Part shown: positions 11,130 through 50,045 of the stretch, piece by piece
Position numbering within the stretch: the stretch's first letter is position 1
Layout: every line of letters begins with the position of its first letter
NCBI RefSeq assembly: GCF_016865365.1
Contig: NZ_AP024469.1
Span: 248,001 to 312,000, forward strand
DNA length: 64,000 bases
Direction: 5' to 3'
Origin: Geobacter sp. SVR
Lineage (GTDB): Bacteria > Desulfobacterota > Desulfuromonadia > Geobacterales > Pseudopelobacteraceae
Translations under genes and position numbers: made by a program
The notes under the pieces: model-generated
What the model saw: only the letters and a program-made list of their open reading frames with translations
Told to the model about the DNA's origin: nothing
Database searches by the model: none

Positions 11130-12473
11130 ATGGATTTATTGTTATCCAAACATATTCCGGGATTTATCCGAGATCGCCTGGAGGGGCGTCATAATTTACA
11201 AAGAGTAGTAGCCAATATCAGCTGGCTTTTTGTCGATAACATAATACGCATGGGAGTCGGCATGCTGGTTGGCGTCTGGGTAGCCCGGTACCTGGGACCT
11301 GAGCAATATGGCCGAATTAATTATGCAACTGCATTTGTTTCGTTATTCTTTGCAGTGACGACACTTGGGCTTGATAGCATAGTTGTACGCGAGATTGTTA
11401 AAGATACTTCGAGCTCTGGTGAGATTCTTGGTAGTGCATTCATTCTGAAGTTATTGGGAGGAATTACTACTTTTATTTTATCGTTGGTGATTATAATTGT
11501 AAGCCGACCTAATGATACTATTACACATTGGCTTGTGGGTATAACTTCGCTTGGCACTGTTTTCCAATCCCTTGATACAATCAATTTCTGGTTTCAATCT
11601 CAAGTTAAATCTAAGTATGTGGTATACGCAAAAAGCTGTGCTTTCTTGATAATATCAATGATAAAAATCGTTTTTATTATTAGCAAAGCACCGCTTATTG
11701 CTTTTGCATGGACAGGATTTGCTGAGATAGTATTGGGCTCATGTGGCCTGGTTATCGTATATCGTCTTTATGGTCAAACTCTTAAAACGTGGTCGGCCAC
11801 AGTAAGAAGAATGCAAAATTTACTGAACGAAAGTTGGCCATTGATTTTTTCAGGTATAGCTATTTATGTGCAGGCTCGTATCGATCAGGTCATGCTGGGT
11901 GATATGTTGGGTAATGTTGAGGTTGGCCAGTTCTCAGCTGCGATGAAGCTCATAGAGGTTTTTGGATTTGTGCCTATGATAATTCAAAGCACTATAGCTC
12001 CATCAATAACTATGGCAAGAGCTGTCAGTGATAGAGCATATTATACGCGGCTTTTAAATTTATATCGCCTTATGTTTTTATTGTTTTTATCTACAGCCAT
12101 CCCTATTTTTTTGTTCGCAAAGGAATTTGTAGTGTTCTTTTACGGCAATAACTATGCGGCGGCTGGAGTACTATTGTCGTTATTTGCCATAAGACTGTTG
12201 TTTACGAATTTTGGGGTTGCAAAAGATTTATATATAACAAATGAAGGGCTGTTCAGGTATTCATTGATAACATCAGTTTTAGGATGCATTGCAAACATAG
12301 TCCTCAATTATGTATTGATTCCACGTTATGCTTCAGTAGGCGCAATCATATCAATGATTATTTCCTTTGCTATAACTATTTTTATAGTTGACTTATTCTT
12401 TGAACAACTACGAAAAAATTTAAAAGTCATGTTTTACGCAATCATAACGCCATGGAAGATTACGTTGCACTAA
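11130..12473 (+). CDS. Polysaccharide repeat-unit flippase (Wzx-like)
   Basis: A 447-residue, very hydrophobic protein of the MOP/polysaccharide-exporter superfamily with about 12-14 predicted membrane helices. The N-terminal block typical of Wzx is present (residues 29-56, WLFVDNIIRMGVGMLVGVWV, then YLGPEQYG). It should flip undecaprenyl-linked repeat units across the inner membrane. The gene is much more AT-rich than its flanks, as usual for flippases acquired with O-antigen clusters. It pairs with the polymerase-like gene at 16577 for a Wzx/Wzy-type pathway. Confidence 0.9.
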   Translation: MDLLLSKHIPGFIRDRLEGRHNLQRVVANISWLFVDNIIRMGVGMLVGVWVARYLGPEQYGRINYATAFVSLFFAVTTLGLDSIVVREIVKDTSSSGEILGSAFILKLLGGITTFILSLVIIIVSRPNDTITHWLVGITSLGTVFQSLDTINFWFQSQVKSKYVVYAKSCAFLIISMIKIVFIISKAPLIAFAWTGFAEIVLGSCGLVIVYRLYGQTLKTWSATVRRMQNLLNESWPLIFSGIAIYVQARIDQVMLGDMLGNVEVGQFSAAMKLIEVFGFVPMIIQSTIAPSITMARAVSDRAYYTRLLNLYRLMFLLFLSTAIPIFLFAKEFVVFFYGNNYAAAGVLLSLFAIRLLFTNFGVAKDLYITNEGLFRYSLITSVLGCIANIVLNYVLIPRYASVGAIISMIISFAITIFIVDLFFEQLRKNLKVMFYAIITPWKITLH

Positions 12474-12491
12474 ATACATAGTTGGAGATTT

Positions 12492-13301
12492 ATGAAGCTC
12501 CTGAGGAAGATGAATTTCCTGCTTTTTCTGGCGGGGTTGAATTTACAGGGATTGGCGTCCTTTCTTTGGCTCATGCCGAAGTACGCCAGGGATTTTCTGT
12601 ACTTCAAAAAACAATCTGACTGGAAAATAGCAGCTTACCCTTGTCTTTATGACACCAAGACGCAATCGGCGACCTTGGGTGAATATTTTTGGCAAGATAT
12701 GTATGTGGCCGGGAAAATTATAAACTCGGCGCAGGGGGGAAGACATATTGATATCGGCAGCAGGGTGGATGGTTTTATATCCATTGTAGCCTCGGTGCGG
12801 CCAATAGAGGTTTTTGATATACGTCCCCTGAAGGTGAAAATTCCAAACGTGGAGTTTCATCAGTGGGATATGACAGTTCCTTCGTGCGGACAGGTTGAGG
12901 CGGATAGTGTCAGCTGTTTGCACACTATTGAGCATGTGGGGTTGGGGCGCTACGGAGATCGCATTGATCCCGACGGGTGGAAGTGCGCCTTGATTAATGT
13001 ACTTTCTCTGCTAAAAGAGAATGGAGTTCTGTGGTTGTCAGTGCCGATCGGCATTGAAAGAGTCGAGTTCAATGCTCATCGCATATTTAATCCCCACACT
13101 ATAGATACCTTGCTCTGTGGTAGCGGAATGGAGTTACTTGAATTCTCGTACGTGGATGGCACCGGCTTGTACAAAACAGAAAATACAGTGAGTGAAATGA
13201 TGCGGTTGGCACATCTGAAATACTCTCTTGGAATATTTTGCTATCGAAAAATCGGAAAAATTTCCGATTTTGATGACGAATCCTGCATTGGTGCCTGTTA
13301 A
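12492..13301 (+). CDS. DUF268-like protein (methyltransferase-like fold)
   Basis: A 269-residue protein with an N-terminal hydrophobic stretch (about 8-27). Next comes a SAM-methyltransferase-like core: a glycine-rich HIDIGSRVDGF motif near 93-103 and the segment CLHTIEHVGLGRYGDRIDP characteristic of DUF268. Proteins of this family occur in glycan clusters, and a sugar-modifying or methylating role is only inference. The ribosome site is GGAG, and the gene follows the flippase by 18 bases. Confidence 0.78.
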   Translation: MKLLRKMNFLLFLAGLNLQGLASFLWLMPKYARDFLYFKKQSDWKIAAYPCLYDTKTQSATLGEYFWQDMYVAGKIINSAQGGRHIDIGSRVDGFISIVASVRPIEVFDIRPLKVKIPNVEFHQWDMTVPSCGQVEADSVSCLHTIEHVGLGRYGDRIDPDGWKCALINVLSLLKENGVLWLSVPIGIERVEFNAHRIFNPHTIDTLLCGSGMELLEFSYVDGTGLYKTENTVSEMMRLAHLKYSLGIFCYRKIGKISDFDDESCIGAC

Positions 13302-37558: not shown

Positions 37559-39004
37559 TTGAAGCAACCTGCCGATAATGAACGCTCCATCCTGGTGGTG
37601 GATGACAACCCCGATTTTCTGAACGAGGTGCGTCTGATGCTTATCTCCAATGGCATCAAGGAGGTAACGACGCTCTCTGCCAGTACCGAATTGCTGGATG
37701 CGCTGGAATGCGGCGGGGTGGCGGTGCTGTTGATGGACTGGATGATGCCGGGCCTGACCGGTGCCGACCTGTTGCCGGTGATCATCGAGCGCTTCCCGCA
37801 CATTCCGGTCATCATCATGACGGCGGTCAACGATCTGCAGACTGTGGTGGGATGCATAAAACAGGGAGCTTTTGATTACATCACCAAACCGATCGATGTT
37901 AACCGGCTTCTGTCCTGCATTGCCAAGGCTTTCCAGATCAACGAACTGGCCAGGCAGAACCGCCGCCTCAAGGAGTACCTGCTGGGGAACAACCTGCTCC
38001 AGCCCGAGATCTTCAGCGGGATCGTAACTGCCAATCCGCGCATGCAAGCCATTTTCAAGATCGTGGAGACCATGGGAGGCACACACCATCCGGTTCTGAT
38101 CAGCGGAGAAACCGGCGTCGGCAAGGAGCTGATCGCCCGCGCCATTCACCAGTCCAGCGGTCTCAGGGGTGCTTTCGTACCTCTCAACGTTGCCGGGCTG
38201 GATGACATGATGTTTGCCGATACCCTGTTCGGGCATAAAAAAGGCGCCTTTACCGGCGCCCACGAACCGCGGGAGGGACTAATTGCCAAGGCCGAGGGGG
38301 GTACCCTGTTTCTGGACGAGATCGGCGATCTGGGAAGCGACTCCCAAGTCAAGCTGTTACGTCTGCTGCAGGAACACGAATACTACCGGCTCGGGTCGGA
38401 CGCCCTGATCAAGAGCAATGCCCGTATCATCGCCGCCTCCAACCGCGATTTCGGAAGCCTGATGCAACAGGGGGTCTTTCGCCGCGACCTGTACCATCGT
38501 CTCCGCAACCACCACATACACATTCCGCCGTTGCGGGAACGGGGCGACGACATTCCGCTGCTGATCGAGCATTTCCTGCGGAAAGCCGCTACGGAGAGCG
38601 GGCGCCCCGTGCCGGCACTTACCAGGGAGGCGCGCAACGCGCTGGAGGCTTACGACTATCCCGGCAACGTGCGGGAACTGGCCAACCTGATCCAGCATGC
38701 AGTGGCCTGCGACAACAGCGGAATACTGAATCTGGCCGATTTTCCGGGCATCGACGTCTCCGATGGCTCGGGACCGAGGCAACTGCGTATCTTCCGGGAC
38801 GGCTCCTACCGTCTGCAAATGAATTTTCCGGCCTTTCCCAGCATCGGGATCATTGAGCAGATGATCATCGAAGAGGCGATCCGCATTTCGGAAGGCAACA
38901 AAAGCCATGCCGCCGATCTTTTGGGCATATCGCGTCCAACGCTCAACAGAAAACTTGCGGAAGGCAGCATCCGCAGTGCAACGGGCGTCCAGGAGAGGAT
39001 GTGA
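37559..39004 (+). CDS. Sigma-54-dependent response regulator (NtrC family)
   Basis: A 481-residue activator starting with TTG after AAAGGAGG. The receiver has D15/D16 and phospho-acceptor D60 (LLMDWMMPG). The AAA+ domain has GETGVGKE and KKGAFTGA, and a Fis-type helix-turn-helix ends the protein (SHAADLLGISRPTLNRKL). It converges on the kinase gene at 39029 with only 24 bases between, so the two are probable partners even though they are on opposite strands. Likely targets are the receptor/binding-protein operon or the peptide locus upstream. Confidence 0.93.
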   Translation: MKQPADNERSILVVDDNPDFLNEVRLMLISNGIKEVTTLSASTELLDALECGGVAVLLMDWMMPGLTGADLLPVIIERFPHIPVIIMTAVNDLQTVVGCIKQGAFDYITKPIDVNRLLSCIAKAFQINELARQNRRLKEYLLGNNLLQPEIFSGIVTANPRMQAIFKIVETMGGTHHPVLISGETGVGKELIARAIHQSSGLRGAFVPLNVAGLDDMMFADTLFGHKKGAFTGAHEPREGLIAKAEGGTLFLDEIGDLGSDSQVKLLRLLQEHEYYRLGSDALIKSNARIIAASNRDFGSLMQQGVFRRDLYHRLRNHHIHIPPLRERGDDIPLLIEHFLRKAATESGRPVPALTREARNALEAYDYPGNVRELANLIQHAVACDNSGILNLADFPGIDVSDGSGPRQLRIFRDGSYRLQMNFPAFPSIGIIEQMIIEEAIRISEGNKSHAADLLGISRPTLNRKLAEGSIRSATGVQERM

Positions 39005-39028
39005 GTTTTAGTATTCCTCCGTTGCTCC

Positions 39029-40615
39029 TTATCCCTGCAGCGCGGACCTGGCAGGAGGGAGTGAAACGGTTACGGCAGTGCCGGCTCCCGGCTGGGAGCG
39101 GAAGGTGATTCGGCCGCCATGTTCACTCACCAGGTAATTGGCCACAAAGAGACCGAGCCCGCTGCCCCCCCGGTCGAGCCGGGTCGAGAAAAAGGGCTCC
39201 AGCAGCCGCTCCATGTGCTCCGCCGGTATGCCCTCCCCTTCGTCCTGCACGGTTATGGTGGCTTCTCCGACAGTCGGGAGGTAGGCGGTGCTGACCATGA
39301 TCCGTCCCTTGCCGCCATCCAGCGATTGGAGCGCATTGAGCAGGAGGTTGACCACCACCTGTTCCAATTTGTGCGGACTGGCGTTGACCGACGGCAGCTC
39401 CGGCGCCAGGTCGGTCCAGATGCTCATGTCGCTGTGATGACCATAGGCACGAATGACCGACAGCGCATTGCTGACCACTTGGTTGAGATCGACGTCGGGA
39501 CGAAACTCATTCGGCTTTCCGAGGCTGTAGGAGCGCAGGTCGTGCACCACCGCGGCGATCAGCTTGGTGCTGCGCTCGATGGTGGCGCAGCTTTGAGCCA
39601 ATTCGTCCCTGGCCGCGCTGAACGGCAACCCACCCAGACAGAAATCCCCCTCCTCCTCGGCTGCCTGCTGCAGCAGCGGCAAGGCATCCTTCCAGGCCCG
39701 AGACAGGTACGTGCCGGCCAGATGGATGGCTGCGTTGGGATTGTTGATCTCATGGGCCATGCTTGAGGCCAGCAGTCCCAGAAAGGTCATCCGGTTGGTC
39801 TGGATCAGTTTGGCCATCAGCTGTTTCTTTTCTTCCTGCACTTCAAGGCGCATGGCATTAACCAGTTCCTCCTGCAGTCGCGCATTCTCTACCTCCCGCT
39901 GGCGCAGGGCGGCTGCCAGATGATTCACAGCCGCAGTTGCCCTGCCCGCCTCGTCATCGCGTTCTATCGGGATACTGACGGTATAATTGCCTTCCTGCAT
40001 GGTTTCCAGCCCATGGACCAACGTGTTGAAAGAACGGGTCACCTGCCGCAGGGCCAAGTAGCTCAACAGTGAAACTGTGGCCCAGAACAGGAAGGAGACG
40101 CAGCAGGCGGTGGCGATCAAACGGTGTGTGTTTTCCCTTTCTCCGCTGGTGTCCAGGTCGACCCGCACGGTGCCTATCCTGACCCCTGATGTATCGTCGC
40201 TGCCGGTGAGCGCCGATTCCGGGGACAAACCCTGCGGCATGCTGCGAACCTCGGCTGACATGCTCAGAAGATCGTTGGCGGCAGGTTTTGACGGCCGCCG
40301 CACCTCAGCCAGTACGCGTCCATCGTTGGCGGTGATGGTCACGGCATTGATGTCCGGATAGCGCGCCGTGGTGCCGGCCATTTGCAGCAGCGTCTCGCGG
40401 TCTTCGGCAAACAGCGCCAGTCGGACGCCGTCCGACAGCTGGGTTGCCAGCAGCCGGGCCCGGTCGCCGGCCCGGGATGTGCGTTCGCTTATTTCGGAGA
40501 AGATGTAGAGCGTACTGAAGAGGGAAGTGATCAGTGCGGTCAGCAGCGTGAAAATCATGAAGAGCTTGAAGCGGAAGCTGGCGCGGAAACCGGTGAGAAA
40601 TGCATACAGTCCCAT
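39029..40615 (-). CDS. Membrane sensor histidine kinase
   Basis: A 528-residue kinase. Helices at about 16-40 and 168-190 flank a small periplasmic domain, followed by HAMP, a coiled coil (about 235-275), a HisKA domain with the H-box SMAHEINNPNAAIH and an ATPase domain (DEGEGIPAE; GGSGLGLFVANYL). ATG 40615 gives an N-terminus entering the first helix; a longer frame overlaps the binding-protein gene. It follows that gene by four bases, which suggests that the binding protein passes its signal to this kinase. Confidence 0.93.
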   Translation of the reverse strand: MGLYAFLTGFRASFRFKLFMIFTLLTALITSLFSTLYIFSEISERTSRAGDRARLLATQLSDGVRLALFAEDRETLLQMAGTTARYPDINAVTITANDGRVLAEVRRPSKPAANDLLSMSAEVRSMPQGLSPESALTGSDDTSGVRIGTVRVDLDTSGERENTHRLIATACCVSFLFWATVSLLSYLALRQVTRSFNTLVHGLETMQEGNYTVSIPIERDDEAGRATAAVNHLAAALRQREVENARLQEELVNAMRLEVQEEKKQLMAKLIQTNRMTFLGLLASSMAHEINNPNAAIHLAGTYLSRAWKDALPLLQQAAEEEGDFCLGGLPFSAARDELAQSCATIERSTKLIAAVVHDLRSYSLGKPNEFRPDVDLNQVVSNALSVIRAYGHHSDMSIWTDLAPELPSVNASPHKLEQVVVNLLLNALQSLDGGKGRIMVSTAYLPTVGEATITVQDEGEGIPAEHMERLLEPFFSTRLDRGGSGLGLFVANYLVSEHGGRITFRSQPGAGTAVTVSLPPARSALQG

Positions 40616-40619
40616 TGCG

Positions 40620-41528
40620 TTACTCCCGTTCCAACTTATCGAGTATTTCCGGTGAGATGTCGAGATGCCTGAGAACGCTCCCGTTGGATTTGAGCGTGGT
40701 CCGGCGCGGCAGGCCGGGAGGAAGTTCGGCAATGTCGCTCCCCCGCAGGATCGAGAGCGCCATTTCGCCAGCCTGCCGGCCGATGTCGGTTCGGTCCAGC
40801 TCCAGTATCGCCGCAGCTCCCAGTTTCAGGTACGGTGCAGCAAAGGAAATCACCGGCACACGCTGTTCCTGGGAAAAATGAAAATAGGCCTCGACGGTTT
40901 CGCGGGTGACCGCTGAGGTATCAGGCAGCATCCACAGTGCATCTACCGCGCCTTTCAAGGTGTCCAGCTGCGTCAGTGCGGAGCGTGGAGTGGAAACCTC
41001 ACGCAGTATCAGTTCGATATCCATGCGCTGTGCAGCCTGCCGAGCCTGGCGCAGGTACCAGGCACTCTTGGCGGGATGGTACAGCAGCCCTACCCGGCGC
41101 CTCTTCATGGTTCTGAACAGTGTCAGGTAGCGTTCCGGAGAGGCAAGCATGCCGATGCCCCCCAGGTTGGGATGGGAACCATACATGCTGGGGAAGCCGA
41201 GCGCCATCAGGGCGACCACCGGCACGTGGCGGATCTTTCTGGCGGCTGCCAGGGCGCTGTCACCGACAGCCAGAACCAGCGCGGGGCGCTCTTCACGTAC
41301 AATCCGTACCACATCGGCCTCGCCATAGTCCGACAGCACGATCACCCTTTCGGAGAGACGGGCGGTACGGAAGCCAGCCAGCGCTTCATCCAGGGCCGGT
41401 TCGCGGCGGCTTTGCACCACCAGCACCTGGTAGGCCCGGGCCTGTTCGCAAAGCAGCAGCAGTACCATTGCAGCAATCAGAAAGGCCAGGCAGAAAACGC
41501 GGCGCTGATAGCTGCGCCGGCCTGTCAC
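40620..41528 (-). CDS. Periplasmic ABC-type substrate-binding protein (ABC_sub_bind family)
   Basis: A 302-residue exported protein (GTG start, basic n-region, hydrophobic 13-29, cleavage after QARA). It has the two-lobed ABC_sub_bind fold: VQSRREPALDEALAGF; ALVLAVGDSALAAARKI; VGLLYHPAKSAWYLRQ. No permease or ATPase is near, and a kinase follows by four bases, so a sensory role is probable. The IS4-family element inserted 31 bases upstream on the coding strand may have cut its transcription from the TonB receptor gene. No good ribosome site is visible before the GTG. Confidence 0.87.
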   Translation of the reverse strand: MTGRRSYQRRVFCLAFLIAAMVLLLLCEQARAYQVLVVQSRREPALDEALAGFRTARLSERVIVLSDYGEADVVRIVREERPALVLAVGDSALAAARKIRHVPVVALMALGFPSMYGSHPNLGGIGMLASPERYLTLFRTMKRRRVGLLYHPAKSAWYLRQARQAAQRMDIELILREVSTPRSALTQLDTLKGAVDALWMLPDTSAVTRETVEAYFHFSQEQRVPVISFAAPYLKLGAAAILELDRTDIGRQAGEMALSILRGSDIAELPPGLPRRTTLKSNGSVLRHLDISPEILDKLERE

Positions 41529-41550
41529 ATGGGGGGGTGCGAAACAATTG

Positions 41551-41559
41551 GGGCATGAG
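41551..41559 (+). repeat. Target-site duplication, left copy
   Basis: GGGCATGAG, identical to the nine bases at 42883-42891 just outside the right end of the insertion element. Confidence 0.95.
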
Positions 41560-42882
41560 CACTACTGTCCGGTTAATTTCGAATGTACTGGCTTAACCAC
41601 CTGATTATTAATGTTCTTTGACACGATTGTTCTTTTTTCGATTTGAATTCATCCCGGGGCTCCGGGGTGGTACCTTCCTGACAGCTCAGGAGGGTACCAA
41701 TGAACTCTGGCCATACCGTCTTTCGGCAACTGCTTCAGTATCTTCCACGACATGAGTTCAATGTCTGCGTTCACCGATATCGCGGTGAGTACTGGGCCAA
41801 GAGTTTTTCCACATTCGACCAGTTTCTTTGTCTGGCGTATGCCCAGATGACCGGGCGTGAGAGTTTGCGGGACATTGAAACCTGTCTGAACTCTCATCAG
41901 GAGAAACTCTACCACATTGGATTTCGTGGTGATGTCTCCCGCACGACGCTTGCCGATGCGAACGAGCGCAGGGATTGGCGGATCTTTCAGGATTTTGGCC
42001 AGATCCTGATCGGTCTTGCCCAAGAGCTTTACAAGGGTGATCCGCTTGCCATCGAATTGAAGCAACCACTATTTGCTTTTGACTCTACGACTATTGATCT
42101 CTGCCTGACGTTGTTTCCGTGGGCCGAATTCCGGAAAACCAAGGCAGCGGTCAAGATGCACACGCTGATTGACCTGCGTGGAATAATCCCGACATTCGTA
42201 GCAATTACCACCGGCAAAGTGAATGATGTAAAGTTGCTGGACAGAATGCCGGTTCAAGAAGATGCCATCTATACCATGGATCGCGGCTATGTTGATTATG
42301 CACGCTTGTTCGCAATTCATAAGCAGGGCGCATTCTTCGTCATAAGGGCCAAAGACAACCTGAAATTCAAGCGCCTCTACTCTGCACCAAAAGATAAGGA
42401 AACAGGTATACGGGCCGACCAGGTTATCACCTTGGTAACGATAAAATCGAAGAAGGGATATCCAGAACGGCTACGCCGGGTCAGCTATGTTGACAAAGAG
42501 CGAAACAAACGTCTGGTATTTCTAACCAACAACTTTGACATCCCGGCAAAGACAGTTGCTGACGTCTACAAGCAGAGGTGGCAGGTGGAGCTGTTCTTCA
42601 AGTGGATCAAGCAGCACCTGCGATTCAAGAAGTTTTACGGAACATCCGAAAATGCTGTTAAAAGCCAGATATGGGTCGGGCTCTGCATGTACCTGCTCGT
42701 GGCTATCGCCAAAAAACGACTCGGTATTCCGTGCTCGCTATACACTTTTCTACAGATTCTTGAGGTCAACTTATTCGAGAAAAAGCCCATTTCATCACTG
42801 GTTACAGAGGGTCTCAAGCAGAAAGCTGGCACTCTCGACTATAACCAGTTGAACTTATTCAATTATTAACCGGACAGTAGTG
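41560..42882 (+). mobile_element. Complete IS4-family insertion sequence, 1323 bp
   Basis: Perfect 18-base terminal inverted repeats (CACTACTGTCCGGTTAAT at 41560-41577 and its complement at 42865-42882) are flanked by a perfect 9-base target duplication. One intact transposase gene fills the element, and its stop codon lies within the right repeat. All features of a mobile copy are present, and the exact target duplication implies recent insertion. It sits between a TonB-receptor gene and a binding-protein gene that read the opposite way. Confidence 0.97.
41700..42869 (+). CDS. IS4-family transposase
   Basis: A 389-residue DDE transposase with an N-terminal DUF4372-like domain (FRQLLQYLPRHEFNVCV; GHTV). 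The catalytic core has aspartates in FAFDSTTIDL and TMDRGYVDY and the IS4 signature Y-x2-R-x3-E-x6-K (YKQRWQVELFFKWIK). GGAGGGTACC precedes the ATG. Full length with no disruption, so probably active. Confidence 0.96.
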   Translation: MNSGHTVFRQLLQYLPRHEFNVCVHRYRGEYWAKSFSTFDQFLCLAYAQMTGRESLRDIETCLNSHQEKLYHIGFRGDVSRTTLADANERRDWRIFQDFGQILIGLAQELYKGDPLAIELKQPLFAFDSTTIDLCLTLFPWAEFRKTKAAVKMHTLIDLRGIIPTFVAITTGKVNDVKLLDRMPVQEDAIYTMDRGYVDYARLFAIHKQGAFFVIRAKDNLKFKRLYSAPKDKETGIRADQVITLVTIKSKKGYPERLRRVSYVDKERNKRLVFLTNNFDIPAKTVADVYKQRWQVELFFKWIKQHLRFKKFYGTSENAVKSQIWVGLCMYLLVAIAKKRLGIPCSLYTFLQILEVNLFEKKPISSLVTEGLKQKAGTLDYNQLNLFNY

Positions 42883-42891
42883 GGGCATGAG
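42883..42891 (+). repeat. Target-site duplication, right copy
   Basis: GGGCATGAG, matching 41551-41559 exactly. Confidence 0.95.
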
Positions 42892-42901
42892 GGGAAAAAC
42901 A

Positions 42902-44740
42902 TCAGAAGCCTATCCTCATACCGCCCTCGAACCAGCGCCCCGGGGCAGGGTAGATATTAATCAGGTACTGGTCGTTGTTGAAGAGGTTGCGGCCGGAGAA
43001 GAACAGCTCCAGCGAGGTGTCCTCGCGTTTGAACAGCATGGCTCCCAGGTGCAGGTCCCACACCATTCCGCCGTAGCGGCCATTGTTGCTGGGATCAGCA
43101 TTCCACCAGACATGGCGGCCGGTCAGCATCGCGCGCAGGCGCTGGTCGTCATAGCGCAGGGCCAGTTGCACGGTGTGGCGCGGCACATCCTTGACCTGGG
43201 AACCATCACTGGTTCGGGTGGTATCGACAAAGGTATAGCCGGCACCCAGGGAGGTGTGCAGGACCGGTGCGGTACGCATCTCCAGCTCGGTACCCAGGGC
43301 AATGCGCCGCTCGCTGGACCATGCTCCGCTTTGGGAGTCGCTGACGGCAATATTCCAGATTTCGTTGCGGAACAAGGTCCCTTTCAGCCAGAGCAGACCG
43401 ATAGCGCTGCTCTCGATGCCGATCTGGGAGGTCCAAACCTTCTCGGACCCACGGTCCAGTTGCAGTGATCGCAGGCTATAACCGCGGGCGGTATAGCCCC
43501 GCAGCAGGGTGGTTTCCCCCAACTGCCAGGTAAACCCCAGGGAAGGGCTGAACTGGTCATCGTTACTTTGGGTACGGTCAAATCGTTCTCCGGCCGAAAG
43601 CGAGAGCGGCCCAAAACTGAGGGTATAGTTGAGATAGGTCCCCCAGCGGTTCACGGGACGATCCGGGAAATCCACCGGCAGCAGTGTCGAGTTGCAGGTG
43701 AGAGCAGCATGCTCATAATCGCCTCCAACAACCAGCAAGTTGTGTTCCGTCCGCCAGACCAGCTTGGCGCTGGCACCGGTGACGTCCTCATGGTTCTTAA
43801 CGTCCTTCACGGTGGTTGCATCGCTCAGTCGGTCTACCAAAACATTTATTTCGCGTCCGGTGTAGCGGGTATTTAGTTCCAGTTCCAGGTCTTCCGACAA
43901 CTGCCGATGATAGCCAAGAGTGGCATAGAAAAAGCGGACGCTATCGTTACCCTTCAGATTAAAAGCCGGTGAGGCGAATTCCCCGCGATTGGCCTGGATA
44001 TAGGAAAAACTGCTGGTCAGGCTGCTACGGTTTGGCAGGTCCAGGATCAGCTTGGCATAGCCATTGCTCGATGACAGGGCATTGTTGGGGAAGAGGCCAT
44101 TGGAGCCGAGGAAGCCGCCTGAGAGATAATAGCCGAGTCTGCCGGGAGTGCCGGAAAGCTCACCGCGGGTATCGGCGGTACCGTGTCCTCCGACTGAAAC
44201 CAAAGCAGTACCGCCGACGGGACGTCCTTGTTCAGGATTTTTAGTAATGACATTGATCACTCCCCCCAAGGCCTGGCCCCAGGCAGTCGAGGCCGCCCCC
44301 TTGACAACTTCGATCCGTTCGATTTGCTGGACCGGCACCAATCCTACGTCGGGGAAATTGTCGGATAGGTTGTTGAGCGGTACCCCGTCCATCAGTACCA
44401 GCACATGGTTGAACTGGGAAGCCTGGATGAAGGTATACGCTACGCTTCCCACCCCGCCCCTCAAGTCGAGCTGCAGACCCGGAATGGTGACCAACACATC
44501 GGCCAGGGTATGGGCGTTGAGCGCCTCGATATCGGCGGCGGTCACCACGGTGACATTCTCGGGGGTACGCGAGAGCGGCTTGGCGGCCCTGCCGGTTGAG
44601 ACCGACTGCCCCTGCCAGCCGTTGAACAGCTCGAGGGTTTCCTCGTCATCCCCCATAGCCCGGCCGGGGATCAAAAATGTGCTGGTTGCCAGCAGCAGCG
44701 CAGCGATATATGATCGGCACAAGAGGTTCATTGTCGGCAC
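42902..44740 (-). CDS. TonB-dependent outer-membrane receptor (BtuB-like)
   Basis: A 612-residue receptor with a signal peptide (cleaved near GRAMG, about residue 30). The plug domain (about 48-165) includes VTVVTAADIEALNAHTLADVL, VLVLMDGVPLNN and IEVVKGAASTAWGQALGGVINVITK. A 22-strand-type barrel ends in the terminal Phe of GGMRIGF. It would import a scarce large ligand such as a cobalamin, siderophore, metallophore or peptide. It is divergent from the small peptide gene at 44811 and, before the IS insertion, ran into the binding-protein/kinase genes. No cobalamin riboswitch was recognised upstream. Confidence 0.93.
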   Translation of the reverse strand: MPTMNLLCRSYIAALLLATSTFLIPGRAMGDDEETLELFNGWQGQSVSTGRAAKPLSRTPENVTVVTAADIEALNAHTLADVLVTIPGLQLDLRGGVGSVAYTFIQASQFNHVLVLMDGVPLNNLSDNFPDVGLVPVQQIERIEVVKGAASTAWGQALGGVINVITKNPEQGRPVGGTALVSVGGHGTADTRGELSGTPGRLGYYLSGGFLGSNGLFPNNALSSSNGYAKLILDLPNRSSLTSSFSYIQANRGEFASPAFNLKGNDSVRFFYATLGYHRQLSEDLELELNTRYTGREINVLVDRLSDATTVKDVKNHEDVTGASAKLVWRTEHNLLVVGGDYEHAALTCNSTLLPVDFPDRPVNRWGTYLNYTLSFGPLSLSAGERFDRTQSNDDQFSPSLGFTWQLGETTLLRGYTARGYSLRSLQLDRGSEKVWTSQIGIESSAIGLLWLKGTLFRNEIWNIAVSDSQSGAWSSERRIALGTELEMRTAPVLHTSLGAGYTFVDTTRTSDGSQVKDVPRHTVQLALRYDDQRLRAMLTGRHVWWNADPSNNGRYGGMVWDLHLGAMLFKREDTSLELFFSGRNLFNNDQYLINIYPAPGRWFEGGMRIGF

Positions 44741-44810: not shown

Positions 44811-44909
44811 ATGTGTCCCATGAGTGAAGAATTGGTTATATTGGAAGAAGGTTATGAGATGAGCGCGCAGGTATCCTGTTGTATTACGAGTATGACGATC
44901 TTCATGTAG
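44811..44909 (+). CDS. Candidate geopeptide-type RiPP precursor, 32 residues
   Basis: A tiny frame reading MCPMSEELVILEEGYEMS then AQVSCCITSMTIFM, preceded by a purine-rich ribosome site (GGGGTGAGGCGG). ATG 44820 is an alternative start giving 29 residues. The first half is acidic and leader-like (EELVILEEGYE). The end is a small hydrophobic core with adjacent cysteines C23-C24 and Thr/Ser residues. It lies 58 bases before a radical SAM/SPASM maturase of the type that in Geobacter is paired with short 'geopeptide' precursors, so it is the likely substrate. The evidence is position and composition; no search was possible. Confidence 0.75.
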   Translation: MCPMSEELVILEEGYEMSAQVSCCITSMTIFM

Positions 44910-44922
44910 TCCCTGCGGGCCC

Positions 44923-44944
44923 AGGGGGAGCTGCGGCTCCCCTT
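44923..44944 (+). terminator. Hairpin between peptide gene and maturase gene (possible attenuator)
   Basis: GGGGAGC (44925-44931) pairs with GCTCCCC (44936-44942), with one more pair outside, followed by TTGAACTTATTTT. It could give partial termination or mRNA protection, so that more precursor than maturase is made, as is common in RiPP operons. Confidence 0.6.
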
Positions 44945-44967
44945 GAACTTATTTTCGAAGGACATCC

Positions 44968-46263
44968 ATGGAGCTGTCTCGCTACACGAAAACTTACCCT
45001 CATCCGGACCAGCCGGAACGGGTGCTACTGTTCTCCACCCGACGTGGGGCACTGCTGCAGGTATCGCACGCACTACTGGAACGCATCCGGTGCAACGACC
45101 TGTCGGATAAAGAACGCGATACTCTGCTGCGCCTGGGCTTTCTGGTGGCGGACTGCGAGGCCGAGCGCGAGGAGGTGTTGGCTACCTTTACGCGCGTCAA
45201 CCGTGACAGCCGACGGTTTACTGCCGTGGTCACCCTGACCCTGACATGCAACCTGGCTTGTCCGTACTGTTACGAAGACCCGTTCCGCGGTGACTTTACG
45301 ATGAGCGAGGAGACCGCCGACCTGCTGGTGCAGCGGGTGACGGAACGGATGGCGTCCGGTCTGGACATTGTCATCGATTTCTATGGCGGAGAGGCGTTAC
45401 TAGCCTTGCCGCTGCTGAAATCCATCGCTGAGCGGTTGAAATTGTTGGCCGGACAGCACGGGGTGGCTTTCGAATTCAATCTGGTGACCAACGGTACCCT
45501 GCTGAACCGCCCGACCGTGCGGGAACTGGCGGAGTTGGGGCTGAAAAAGGCCAAGTTGACCCTGGACGGTCCCCGCGAGATCCATGACCGACAGCGTCCG
45601 TTCGTCTCCGGACGGGGCAGTTTCGATGCGATCGTGGCCAATATCGCGGCTACCTGGGATCTTGTGGCGCTGCAGGTAGGAGGCAACTTCACCCGCGACA
45701 ACTATCACCGTTTTCCGGAAATGCTGGACCATCTGTCGGGTGCGGGCATTACCCCGGACATGCTGCAGATGGTGGTCTTCGCGCCGGTCACCCCCAAGTC
45801 GGACGGTAGCGGCATCGGCGATTTCAGCGCCACCTGCGCCTGCTCGTCCGAACCCTGGCTGATCGAGGCCAGCCTGTACCTGCGAGAAGAGACTCTGCGG
45901 CGCGGCTTCAACGCCCCCAAACCGGCCCCAGCCGGTTGTATGATCGAATTCGCCAACGACCTGGTGGTTGGCTACGACGGCGGTCTCTACAAATGTCCGG
46001 CCTTCATGGGACAGGAAGAGTTGCGGATTGGTTCGCTGGCTGAAGGGGTCGGCGATTACCGCACTTCCCACGGCCTGGATGCCTGGAAGTGCGATGAGTG
46101 TCTGGCCTGTCCCTACCTGCCGCTCTGTTTCGGTGGTTGCCGCTTTCTGCGTCGGCTGGCCAGTGGAGCCATCGATGGTGTCGATTGCCGCCGCGAATTT
46201 TTCGATAAAACGCTCGAAAAAATGATCCGTCAGGATCTTGAGCTACGCGCTCCCCGGAAATAA
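44968..46263 (+). CDS. Radical SAM/SPASM peptide maturase (geopeptide maturase-like)
   Basis: A 431-residue enzyme. Residues 1-85 look like a precursor-binding (PqqD/RRE-like) region. The radical SAM core carries C94-x3-C98-x2-C101 (CNLACPYC) and the SAM-binding stretch DFYGGEALL. The C-terminal SPASM domain has CMIEFAND..YKCPAF and the cluster pattern CDECLACPYLPLCFGGC, implying two auxiliary iron-sulfur clusters. Such enzymes make thioether or other carbon links in ribosomal peptides. It closely fits the maturase family known in Geobacter next to geopeptides. GAAGGA precedes the ATG. The modification type is unknown. Confidence 0.92.
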   Translation: MELSRYTKTYPHPDQPERVLLFSTRRGALLQVSHALLERIRCNDLSDKERDTLLRLGFLVADCEAEREEVLATFTRVNRDSRRFTAVVTLTLTCNLACPYCYEDPFRGDFTMSEETADLLVQRVTERMASGLDIVIDFYGGEALLALPLLKSIAERLKLLAGQHGVAFEFNLVTNGTLLNRPTVRELAELGLKKAKLTLDGPREIHDRQRPFVSGRGSFDAIVANIAATWDLVALQVGGNFTRDNYHRFPEMLDHLSGAGITPDMLQMVVFAPVTPKSDGSGIGDFSATCACSSEPWLIEASLYLREETLRRGFNAPKPAPAGCMIEFANDLVVGYDGGLYKCPAFMGQEELRIGSLAEGVGDYRTSHGLDAWKCDECLACPYLPLCFGGCRFLRRLASGAIDGVDCRREFFDKTLEKMIRQDLELRAPRK

Positions 46264-46602
46264 TCCCCTTACCTCTCTTCTTTTTCCCTGATTTTCGTCT
46301 GGTTTCAGATCGCCTATAATAAAATGTTACAGTCGGCTCAAAGCCGCTCCAGCAAAGGGCTCGGAGTGGTTTTGGTATTCAGGTGTAACAAAATGTTACA
46401 CTCGGCTGAAAGCAAGGGCCAGGGCAGATTTGCGGCATGTTTTCCAAATCGACTGTAACGAAACGTTACACTCAAGGAACCGGTCGCCCTGCTCTGTTGC
46501 TTCAGCACGCTTTTCCTCTCCTGTCCCAGCCAATTTCCACACTTCGTTTCTACTGCCTCCTGAATCATTCTCTGTTTAATAAATTATATTTTTCAGTGAG
46601 TT
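46264..46602. other. Regulatory-looking intergenic region
   Basis: About 340 bases after the maturase. There is no convincing gene; a minus-strand frame here lacks any support. It contains three operator-like sites listed next and an AT-rich stretch (46575-46600) that could hold a promoter. Confidence 0.5.
46315..46471. promoter_or_regulatory. Three evenly spaced TGTAAC-N5-GTTACA palindromes
   Basis: Site 2 (46383-46401) is a perfect 8-3-8 palindrome, GTGTAACA-AAA-TGTTACAC. Site 3 (46454-46470) is a perfect 7-3-7, TGTAACG-AAA-CGTTACA. Site 1 (46315-46331) keeps the right half TGTTACA and a degenerate left half. All share the central AAA. Centre-to-centre spacings are 69 and 70 bases. Sites 1 and 2 are each followed by a shared TCGGCT-N-AAAGC. 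They look like tandem sites for one dimeric regulator, perhaps a sigma-54 activator. Confidence 0.7.
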
Positions 46603-47360: not shown

Positions 47361-47409
47361 TCAGCTGCCTCTGTTCAATGAATCAATGAACACGAAAGGA
47401 GTACAGACA

Positions 47410-48267
47410 ATGTCACGTAAAACTATCTGCCAGGAAATAGCCGCCATAATTGCCGACAATCAGCAGGAGATCATCTCCTCCTGGTACCAGCTGATCACCG
47501 ACAAGGGGCAAATCATAGTGGCGACCATGGGAGAAGAGGAGATGAAATGCTTCATGCGCGACGGCATTTCCGCCTTTGCCAAGGCCCTGCACGCAGGGGA
47601 GGATTTCCGGGGAGAGGCCTACCGCGATGCGCGCGAGCTGCATACCAGGCTGAGTACGATCCTGGCCGCCAAAGGCGTTTCGCCGGCGGAGGTCGCCACC
47701 CTGGTCTTTTCCAAGAAGGATCCCATCAATACGGTGCTGCAGAAAGCCTATCCCCAGAAGGATAAACTGCTGGAGGCCATCAGTCTGGTAAACCGGGTGA
47801 TCGACCAGGCCGGCCTGTATACCTTCGAGACCTTCACGGCCTCGCGGGAAGCGATCATAAAGGAACAGCAAAAAGCCCTGCTGGAGCTTTCCGCCCCGGT
47901 GGTCAAGGTATGGGAGAGGATCCTGATGATGCCGCTGATCGGCATTATGGACAGTGCACGGACCCAGCACATCATGGAGTCGCTCCTGACCGGGATCGAG
48001 GAGAACCAGGCCAAGGTGGCGATTCTCGATATCTCCGGCATTCCGGTGGTGGATTCCCTGGTCGCCAAGCATCTTTTCAGGACCGTAGCAGCAGCAAAGC
48101 TGATGGGGGCGGAGTGCATCATCACCGGCATACGCGCCAGGATCGCACAGACCATGATCCAGCTTGGAGTGGATCTGGCCTGGGTGACCACCAGGAACAC
48201 CATGGCGGAAGGTCTGCGGGTTGCCCTGGATCTGACCGGACAGAGGTTTGTCTCCAAAGAGGTATAG
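47410..48267 (+). CDS. RsbR-like stressosome scaffold protein (STAS domain)
   Basis: A 285-residue protein. The N-terminal sensor domain (about 1-155, all helical, as in RsbR co-antagonists) is followed by a STAS domain. The STAS segment DISGIPVVDSLVAKH holds Ser where Bacillus RsbR has phospho-Thr171, and ITGIRARIAQT holds the second site (Thr205 in RsbR). Such proteins assemble with RsbS into a large sensory shell that binds RsbT. ATG 47410 is chosen because GGAG lies eight bases before it. It starts the four-gene rsb module. Confidence 0.93.
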   Translation: MSRKTICQEIAAIIADNQQEIISSWYQLITDKGQIIVATMGEEEMKCFMRDGISAFAKALHAGEDFRGEAYRDARELHTRLSTILAAKGVSPAEVATLVFSKKDPINTVLQKAYPQKDKLLEAISLVNRVIDQAGLYTFETFTASREAIIKEQQKALLELSAPVVKVWERILMMPLIGIMDSARTQHIMESLLTGIEENQAKVAILDISGIPVVDSLVAKHLFRTVAAAKLMGAECIITGIRARIAQTMIQLGVDLAWVTTRNTMAEGLRVALDLTGQRFVSKEV

Positions 48268-48271
48268 GAAC

Positions 48272-48661
48272 ATGGACGAAGTCACCATCATCAAGGTCGG
48301 GGGAACCCTGGTCGTACCGATTCAGGTGGAACTGCACGACAAGGCCGCAATGAAGCTCCAGCAGAGCATCCTCAGGAAGATCGAGAAGAGCGGTGCCCAA
48401 GGGCTGCTCATAGATGTCTCGGCAGTATCGATCGTAGACAGTTTTCTCGGCCGGCTCCTGGGAGAAACCGCCAAGATGGCGCGGCTCATGGGAACCACTA
48501 CGATACTGGTCGGGATGAGGAAAGAGGTCGTGCTCACCCTGGTGCAGTTGGGCATGACCCTTAATGATCTTTGCACCTCGCTCAATGTGGAAGAGGGGCT
48601 CCGTTTTCTGGACACGCTGCTTAGTGGAACTCCCCCCGCGGACGAGGGAGGAGCGGTATGA
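48272..48661 (+). CDS. RsbS-like STAS antagonist
   Basis: A 129-residue single STAS domain. The phosphorylatable serine lies in DVSAVSIVDSFLGR, almost the same as the Ser59 region of Bacillus RsbS. It should form the stressosome core with RsbR and hold the RsbT kinase until phosphorylated. The gene lies four bases after rsbR-like, and its stop overlaps rsbT-like by four. Confidence 0.94.
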   Translation: MDEVTIIKVGGTLVVPIQVELHDKAAMKLQQSILRKIEKSGAQGLLIDVSAVSIVDSFLGRLLGETAKMARLMGTTTILVGMRKEVVLTLVQLGMTLNDLCTSLNVEEGLRFLDTLLSGTPPADEGGAV

Positions 48662-49068
48662 AAGGGAAAAGCGACGGGACAGTCGGATTTTCCATACAAA
48701 GCGATGAAGATGTGATTCTGGCCCGCCAGAAGGTGCGTTCCATGGCGCAGGAGCTGGGATTTTCCCTTCTGGATCAGACCAAGCTCGTCACGGCGGTCTC
48801 GGAATTGGCCAGGAATATCGTGGTCCACGCCGGCGAAGGAAGCATACGTGTCTTCCGGTTGGAGCAAGCGGGCAGAATCGGCCTGACTGTGCGGTGTGAG
48901 GACCATGGCCCCGGGATCCCTGATGTGGGACGCGCCATGCGTGAGGGATTCAGCACCGTCGGCTCTCTCGGGTTGGGACTGCCGGGCTCCAGGCGCCTGG
49001 TGGACGAGTTTCGCATTGACTCGGTACCCGGCAAGGGCACCATGGTCGAGGTGGTCAAATGGCTCTGA
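48658..49068 (+). CDS. RsbT-like switch-protein serine kinase
   Basis: A 136-residue GHKL ATPase domain with the N box SELARNIVVHAG, the G1 box CEDHGPGIPD and the G2 part GSLGLGLPGSRRLVDEF. In the Bacillus system RsbT phosphorylates RsbR and RsbS, leaves the stressosome, and activates a protein with an RsbU-type N-terminal domain. The protein at 50049 has such a domain. The gene overlaps both neighbours. Confidence 0.94.
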   Translation: MKGKSDGTVGFSIQSDEDVILARQKVRSMAQELGFSLLDQTKLVTAVSELARNIVVHAGEGSIRVFRLEQAGRIGLTVRCEDHGPGIPDVGRAMREGFSTVGSLGLGLPGSRRLVDEFRIDSVPGKGTMVEVVKWL

Positions 49069-50045
49069 AAGAGCAGCGTATTCTGGTGTTTGTGGACAGC
49101 GACATCCTCAAGGTCCGCCGCCTGGCCAGAGAGGCGGCCCAGGAGGCCGGCTTCGACCAGATTGCATCCGGCGAGATCGAGATAGTTGCCTCCGAGCTCG
49201 CTACCAATCTTCTCAAACATCATGCCGTGGATGGAGAGATCGTCATAACCACGCTCAACTCTACCGGCCGGCAAGGGGTTGAGCTACGTTCGCTGGACCT
49301 TGGACCGGGAATACGGGATATCAGGACCGCTGTCCACGGCGGGGTCTCCACGGCCGGCGGATTGGGGATCGGACTCTCCGGGGTCAGGAGACTGATGGAC
49401 GAGTTCTCCATCGAGTCTCAGCCTGGAGCGATGACATCGGTGGTCGCCAGAAAGTGGCTTCCTTCCAAGGATGACACACGGATGGGCTTTTCGGTCATCG
49501 CCAGACCCAAGCCGGGGGAGGATGTCTCCGGCGACGCCTATTTCATCAAACAGGGCCGCGACTATGTCTTCTTTACGGTGCTGGACGCTCTGGGGCATGG
49601 CCCGGAGGCTTTTGAAACGGGCCGGGTCTGCATGGCCGTCATCGAGGAAAATTACGACGCACCACTGCCCATGATCGCAGAGCTGTGCCACCAGGAACTG
49701 AAGGGCACCAGGGGAGCGGCCGTGGCCCTCTGCCGGATCGATTTTGCGGAATCGCGGCTGCGGCACCTGAGCATCGGCAATGTGGAGACCAGGGTCTACG
49801 GTACGAGCGTGCCGGTGCGCCCCTTCTGCTTCAACGGCACTCTGGGGATGTCCATGGAGCGCTACCAGGTCCGGGACTACCGTTGGGAGGAAGGTGCAAC
49901 CATCATGATGTATTCGGACGGGATCTCCTTTCCGTGGGATGTTCAACCCGAGATGATAGCCGCATCTCCTCAGGTGGTCGCAGAGCAGGTTTTCAAGGCC
50001 TTTGCCGGGGACAACGACGATGCCACCGTGCTGGTGGGAAGGTGA
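49059..50045 (+). CDS. Fused GHKL ATPase and SpoIIE/RsbX-type phosphatase
   Basis: A 328-residue two-domain protein. Residues about 1-135 are a second RsbT-like ATPase (ASELATNLLKHH; LDLGPGIRD; GGLGIGLSGVRRLMDEF). Residues about 145-328 are a PP2C/SpoIIE phosphatase with metal-site aspartates in EDVSGDAYF, LDALGHGPEA, YSDGIS and NDDATVL. By analogy with RsbX it should dephosphorylate the RsbR/RsbS proteins and reset the stressosome. Having kinase-like and phosphatase domains in one chain is found in stressosome loci outside Bacillus. It overlaps rsbT-like by ten bases. Confidence 0.92.
   Translation: MALKEQRILVFVDSDILKVRRLAREAAQEAGFDQIASGEIEIVASELATNLLKHHAVDGEIVITTLNSTGRQGVELRSLDLGPGIRDIRTAVHGGVSTAGGLGIGLSGVRRLMDEFSIESQPGAMTSVVARKWLPSKDDTRMGFSVIARPKPGEDVSGDAYFIKQGRDYVFFTVLDALGHGPEAFETGRVCMAVIEENYDAPLPMIAELCHQELKGTRGAAVALCRIDFAESRLRHLSIGNVETRVYGTSVPVRPFCFNGTLGMSMERYQVRDYRWEEGATIMMYSDGISFPWDVQPEMIAASPQVVAEQVFKAFAGDNDDATVLVGR

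Follow-up and report, generated by a model that had tools for sequence, protein, structure and literature searches.

Precursor, hairpin and maturase

The stretch of DNA analysed here (the window, 64,000 nucleotides from Geobacter sp. SVR) carries a short precursor gene, a hairpin and a radical SAM/SPASM maturase gene in a row, together with genes for a TonB-dependent receptor, a periplasmic binding protein and a two-component system (Table 1). The first-pass annotation had described the peptide and its maturase as a candidate RiPP system; the receptor, binding-protein and two-component genes at 37559-44740 are an addition to that view.

Table 1. Coordinates of the features at the geopeptide locus
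Feature	Position	Strand	Remarks
NtrC-type response regulator	37559-39004	+	Receiver, sigma-54 activator, Fis-type HTH
Sensor histidine kinase	39029-40732	-	HAMP domain, weak CHASE8-like sensor-domain match
Periplasmic solute-binding protein	40620-41528	-	PF04392
IS4-family element	41560-42882		18-bp inverted ends, 9-bp target duplication
TonB-dependent receptor, proposed geopeptide receptor	42902-44740	-	Divergent from precursor
Geopeptide-type precursor	44811-44909	+	32 codons plus stop; profile match, conserved place and strand
Hairpin between precursor and maturase	44922-44945	+	Putatively attenuator-like
Radical SAM/SPASM geopeptide maturase, 431 aa	44968-46263	+	TIGR04280

The precursor frame translates as MCPMSEELVILEEGYEMSAQVSCCITSMTIFM, followed by a stop codon, and its ATG at 44811 is preceded by a purine-rich stretch resembling a ribosome site, AAGGGGGGTGAGG. 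The small frame, this stretch and the adjacent core cysteines C23-C24 are all present in the letters and translation as first described. A second ATG at 44820 would give 29 codons and a leader beginning MSEELV, and it is a real alternative start because leaders starting MSEELVVL occur in three relatives (L097, L114, and L165).

Curated models and relatives place the peptide differently. Against the NCBIfam geopeptide precursor model TIGR04229, the 32-residue form scored 15.9 bits and the 29-residue form 17.3 bits, below the cut-off of 30, and therefore the maturase, not the peptide, is filed under NCBIfam models. Only one of 10 sampled precursors passed this cut-off (the window copy was among the 10, and eight of the nine others failed). 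The geopeptide family is probably under-annotated because the curated precursor model recognises so few members, and the earlier expectation that annotation would miss this gene is plausible. A second profile was trained on 100 non-identical precursors that a motif had picked out upstream of TIGR04280 maturases, with the window genome left out. The window frame ranked first among 2021 window frames in this profile (E=2e-7; runner-up E=0.39), and no better small frame was found in the window. The proposed kinship with geopeptides is supported by the relatives' profile; by the TIGR04229 model it falls short of the cut-off. Judged by sequence, the precursor is geopeptide kin in a wider sense, conserved though below the curated model.

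The precursor genes show a pN/pS of 0.25, with 0.14 for the leader and 0.29 for the core (27 close pairs of relatives, which are non-independent). A chance origin of this reading frame, as its score under the TIGR04229 cut-off might suggest, is ruled out for practical purposes by this pN/pS, by E=2e-7 in a profile built without the window genome, and by the conserved place and strand beside maturases.

The hairpin reported between precursor and maturase (CAGGGGGAGC-TGCG-GCTCCCCTTG) is present and recurs in relatives. A GC-rich stem of at least 6 was found in 85 of the 98 precursor-maturase gaps scored, where simple base shuffling gave an expectation of 10.6; 20 of the 118 gaps were left out of the scoring, their length being outside 30-400 nt. 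We infer that the hairpin is attenuator-like.

The maturase passed NCBIfam model TIGR04280 (geopeptide radical SAM maturase) with 644.2 bits (cut-off 400). Both C94/C98/C101 and the full SPASM motif attributed to it were recovered, the cysteine pattern comprising CX9-15GX4C from C324, CX2CX5CX3C from C378, and C407. Ranthipeptides have a cysteine sulfur linked to a beta- or gamma-carbon. The closest solved maturase by sequence is 5wgg, which we take to be CteB, the thioether-forming SCIFF maturase, and by analogy with the enzyme family the product is presumably cross-linked. Unlike SCIFF and PapB enzymes, the window maturase falls under the cut-offs of the ranthipeptide models (TIGR03974, 97.3 bits against 425; PapB NF047865, 123.8 against 340), and the window system differs from ranthipeptides in its two adjacent core cysteines and TonB receptor partner. 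Distant maturase relatives with 26-30% identity were found in a cyanobacterium, a member of the Calditrichaeota, and a Eubacteriales MAG (L027, L028, and L029); the receptor of the geopeptide-linked family was absent from the DNA fetched for these three.

Conservation of the precursor, receptor and sensing genes

A maturase match at E<=1e-80 was obtained in 103 of the 141 genomes of the order to which this strain belongs. Regions were taken for 124 of the 140 matches (the 16 omitted were mostly partial or low-scoring), and the 120 order regions hold 125 maturase frames, a number that counts the split gene of L106 twice and includes a partial copy in L063. A same-strand precursor was found for 118 of the 125 frames at a median of 64 nt upstream, and for none on the opposite strand. 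Most of these peptides (101, from 95 of the 118 precursor-bearing loci) trained the profile and the window genome's two did not, so the clean evidence is that of the window genome's two peptides and of four out of six loci read in other families. That geopeptide-type maturases go together with short precursors was borne out: the maturase matches TIGR04280, this type of frame is kept beside maturase homologues, and no window frame surpasses it in the profile. Of the frames for which the profile gave nothing significant, L073 and L169 have single-cysteine precursor candidates seen by eye. Two or more precursors lie near the maturase at L069, L080, L117, L121, L171, and L177, and at L117 and L121 the second is about 1.5 kb downstream of the maturase start, beyond the gene.

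The dominant neighbour cluster is the TonB-dependent receptor, which is found at 114 of the 120 loci (about -5 to +6.5 kb) and within 7 kb of 119 of the 125 maturase frames. It is directly divergent in 93 of the 125 and elsewhere lies, for example, on the same strand upstream or convergent downstream. Four of the six receptor-less frames (L091, L115, L132, and L163) are no more than about 0.5 kb from a contig end on the upstream side; the receptor of L105 is cut by a contig end, and L179 has none. A PF04392 binding protein occurs within 7 kb of 100 of the 125 frames, the kinase cluster within 7 kb of 80, and the NtrC-type regulator cluster within 7 kb of 52; the kinase and regulator counts are rough because their clusters are broad, and at many loci neither was found within this distance. 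Genes were called by a simple longest-frame procedure. In the window, the listed start of the kinase gene overlaps the binding-protein gene, and the actual start is likely later.

Eleven neighbour clusters recur in at least six loci, and one member of each was Pfam-scanned or named. No permease, no immunity or dedicated export gene, and no peptidase or further biosynthesis gene was recognised among these 11; three of them had no Pfam match, one of the three being antisense over a maturase (L157). No exporter was identified among the recurrent neighbours or by C39-peptidase match in the genome, where the sole such match lies about 44 kb from a second geopeptide locus and 1.8 Mb from the window locus.

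The receptor partnership seen in the order was seen again in other families of the phylum. In a sample of 395 genomes, TIGR04280 was found in 31, of which 23 lie outside the order and carry 26 maturases. All 23 have the receptor (28 matches in a position search). By distances calculated by hand, 23 of the 26 maturases have it no more than 2.3 kb away on their own contig; with one or two receptors per genome and genome sizes of 2 to 9 Mb, simple arithmetic puts chance adjacency at roughly one in a thousand for each maturase. The receptor is upstream on the same strand in 20 of these 23 cases and divergent in three, a layout mostly unlike that of the order. For the three remaining maturases, the contig of one (G358:C16) runs out 0.8 kb upstream, and in G336 and G379 the receptors are on other contigs. 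Six of the out-of-order loci were read: five have the receptor and four also have the binding protein and kinase. The profile detected a precursor at four of the six, and a fifth (L206) was seen by eye. The L204 precursor has the orientation of the receptor and points away from the maturase, and L201 has neither receptor nor precursor.

Maturase and receptor tend to occur in the same genomes. Among the 141 genomes of the order, 98 have both, five the maturase only, 11 the receptor only, and 27 neither (Fisher P=2e-15, kinship ignored; thresholds E<=1e-80 for the maturase and E<=1e-90 for the receptor, overlap counted by hand). The receptor family is not exclusive to maturase loci: there are about 194 receptor matches in the order, fragments included, against 140 maturase matches. 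In several genomes an extra receptor lies with a binding protein and kinase where no precursor was found (L180-L183). The 17 receptors without a maturase require 12 changes on the receptor tree (shuffle mean 16.3, lowest 13); they are scattered and therefore look like repeated losses or independent listeners, and some are contig-end artefacts. Twenty loci were chosen for having no adjacent maturase; the orphan count on the tree is an upper bound because the maturase could be off the contig at the five of these loci that lie near a contig end (L184, L187, L190, L194, and L195). The stretch L199 has a precursor-like frame with a CIC core (12429-12542) beside a receptor and binding protein; the maturase is absent from this stretch, and its genome has two maturases elsewhere.

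Co-evolution of peptide and receptor was analysed in 106 rows, leaving out receptors under 500 aa and shared receptors. Core similarity followed receptor similarity with the maturase allowed for (partial r 0.187; P=0.005, the lowest value that 199 permutations allow). This tracking is not ligand-specific because the leader also tracks the receptor (0.245) and the core follows the maturase more closely (0.454). Ligand coupling by co-evolution was set aside, core and leader both following the receptor.

Proposed recapture and sensing of the peptide

What was observed directly is which genes are present, how conserved they are, and that they are linked. The link with a receptor, and often with a signalling relay, suggests that the cell may release, retake, and sense its peptide. 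We propose, with moderate confidence, a geopeptide RiPP locus with its own recapture-and-sensing module, from which a cross-linked peptide would be secreted, recaptured by the receptor, and sensed periplasmically. The maturase would join one of the core cysteines to a residue close by, cleavage at or after LEEG would remove the leader, and the product would exit the cell through an exporter. The TonB receptor would return the peptide to the periplasm, the binding protein would hold it and report to the histidine kinase, and the kinase would set the NtrC-type response regulator. An autoinducer-like signal is favoured over a nutrient or metal carrier because no permease was recognised and a kinase is often present.

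LuxP-LuxQ-LuxO of Vibrio combines a binding protein, a kinase with a periplasmic part, and a sigma-54-type regulator. The window genes offer the same three kinds of part, but they belong to other families, the proposed signal would be an imported peptide, and the regulator is not LuxO by the LuxO model NF041946 (260.5 bits, cut-off 800). A wider and more tentative possibility is that geopeptides are a Gram-negative radical SAM pheromone class in several families of the phylum, produced and exported by the cell, recaptured by a dedicated TonB receptor and read by the binding-protein/kinase/NtrC relay, with receptor-only genomes listening in on producers. In Clostridium beijerinckii, the agr quorum-sensing locus was upregulated when a ranthipeptide cluster was disrupted (passages of PMC8102284).

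Predicted structures of the receptor and the binding protein do not, at the level of fold, name a ligand. The receptor model (pLDDT 79.5) is nearest to BtuB at 18% identity and then to a mix of receptors, those for siderophores and heme among them. For the binding-protein model (pLDDT 91.3) the nearest structures are 3lkv, Trp-bound 3lft, and CD0873 (6hni), and no metal-chelate binder is prominent among its nearest solved relatives.

Methanobactin loci use a sigma/anti-sigma pair, and the MbnB/MbnC-type enzymes belong to methanobactin. The window locus differs in its inferred two-component sensing and in the maturation of its peptide by a radical SAM/SPASM enzyme. Among the subset of window ORFs that were Pfam-scanned (6 and 4), no MbnB/MbnC-type enzyme was found. 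The parts themselves are alike: passages of PMC7558416 describe a ribosomal peptide, a TonB transporter, and a periplasmic binding protein, of which the binding protein MbnE is OppA/AppA-related, unlike the PF04392 type of the window. This likeness speaks for a metal carrier, in which the peptide would bind extracellular metal through its cysteines, the receptor would import the complex, and the relay would report metal supply. The vicinal cysteines of 116 of the 118 precursor cores (CxC in two) and the many siderophore and heme receptors among the matches of the receptor model are in keeping with it. The recurrent neighbours without a recognised permease argue the other way, as do the Trp-bound structure near the binding protein, the lack of a prominent metal-chelate binder there, and the hydrophobic, non-chelating tails of many relatives' precursors; we consider a metal carrier rather unlikely.

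It is doubtful that the receptor serves another ligand, such as a cobamide, with the peptide acting as a local regulator or gate of the receptor. BtuB is the nearest structure to the receptor model, among NCBIfam models the window receptor matches the B12 receptor best, below its cut-off, and some genomes have the receptor family without the maturase. However, the likeness to BtuB at 18% identity says little because BtuB is a short barrel, and a precursor and radical SAM enzyme are kept beside the receptor across families.

Colicins and microcins enter cells by TonB receptors in solved complexes (as given in structure titles), and the peptide could by the same token be antagonistic and bacteriocin-like, the receptor being its entry port or a self-recapture device. 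Since neither an immunity gene nor a dedicated export gene was recognised among the recurrent neighbours, and since the kinase and regulator go better with sensing, this is highly improbable. PqqA is the precursor of PQQ, whose biology also brings together a radical SAM/SPASM enzyme that matures a short precursor and a TonB receptor, and PqqU, the PQQ receptor, is among the fold matches of the receptor model; that the peptide likewise gives rise to a small redox cofactor or shuttle, which the receptor takes back, has still less to recommend it, given a weak NCBIfam PqqU match (33.5 bits against a cut-off of 1200) and recurrent neighbours in which no peptidase or further biosynthesis gene was recognised.

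Radical SAM families have reportedly been surveyed by Haft and Basu. The word "geopeptide" was absent from the open-licence literature searched, a scope outside which most subscription-journal papers fall, and the Geobacter passages of PMC4289311 deal with lasso peptides. The peptide-maturase pair is of a known kind, uncharacterised as far as could be searched: the maturase is well above the TIGR04280 cut-off and a precursor of the same design lies directly upstream, though below the TIGR04229 cut-off. A receptor or sensing partnership of geopeptides was not found described in the same literature, and the NCBIfam model names (names only were compared) mention no receptor, binding protein, or kinase and give no function. 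The recurrent receptor and putative sensing module sets the locus apart as a variant with a methanobactin-like gene set, a radical SAM-made peptide and, presumably, two-component sensing. The receptor partnership turns an orphan peptide into a testable hypothesis of import and sensing.

Insertions, a second locus and nearby sites in this strain

Insertion sequences lie at both geopeptide loci of this genome, in each case at the binding protein. In the window, an IS4-family element of 1323 bases (six genome copies, 100% identity), with its transposase at 41700-42869 on the + strand, separates the receptor gene from the binding-protein and kinase genes; it interrupts the module and plays no part in its function. 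The second locus (L103) has its own maturase, receptor, and precursor, MQNDLMVLEEGHEVGVVVNCCTGGTSTASIR. Its binding-protein gene is split into two parts that flank an IS200-type gene. Because the IS4-family element separates the window genes and the binding protein of L103 is split, this strain may be impaired in sensing. The strong matches in this genome, two for the receptor and two for the binding protein, are all at its two geopeptide loci, and the next-best matches are far weaker (98 and 71 bits, respectively).

Sigma-54-like sites upstream of the precursor were weakly enriched (8 of 116 against 3, one shuffle each), too weakly for a sigma-54 promoter, which was set aside. Downstream of the maturase, the palindrome TGTAAC-N5-GTTACA occurs at 46384-46400 and 46454-46470, 70 bases apart, and nowhere else in the genome of 4.7 Mb. 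Its core GTAAC-N5-GTTAC has five matches in 2.03 Mb (the 120 order regions), two of them being the window pair. The palindrome was dropped as a part of the geopeptide locus, the loci of relatives being without it, and the pair is possibly the operators of the next unit. Further downstream, at 47386-50045, RsbR/STAS-like, anti-sigma-kinase-like, and phosphatase-like frames lie in a run, the first matching RsbRD_N plus STAS and the others being judged by eye from their translations.
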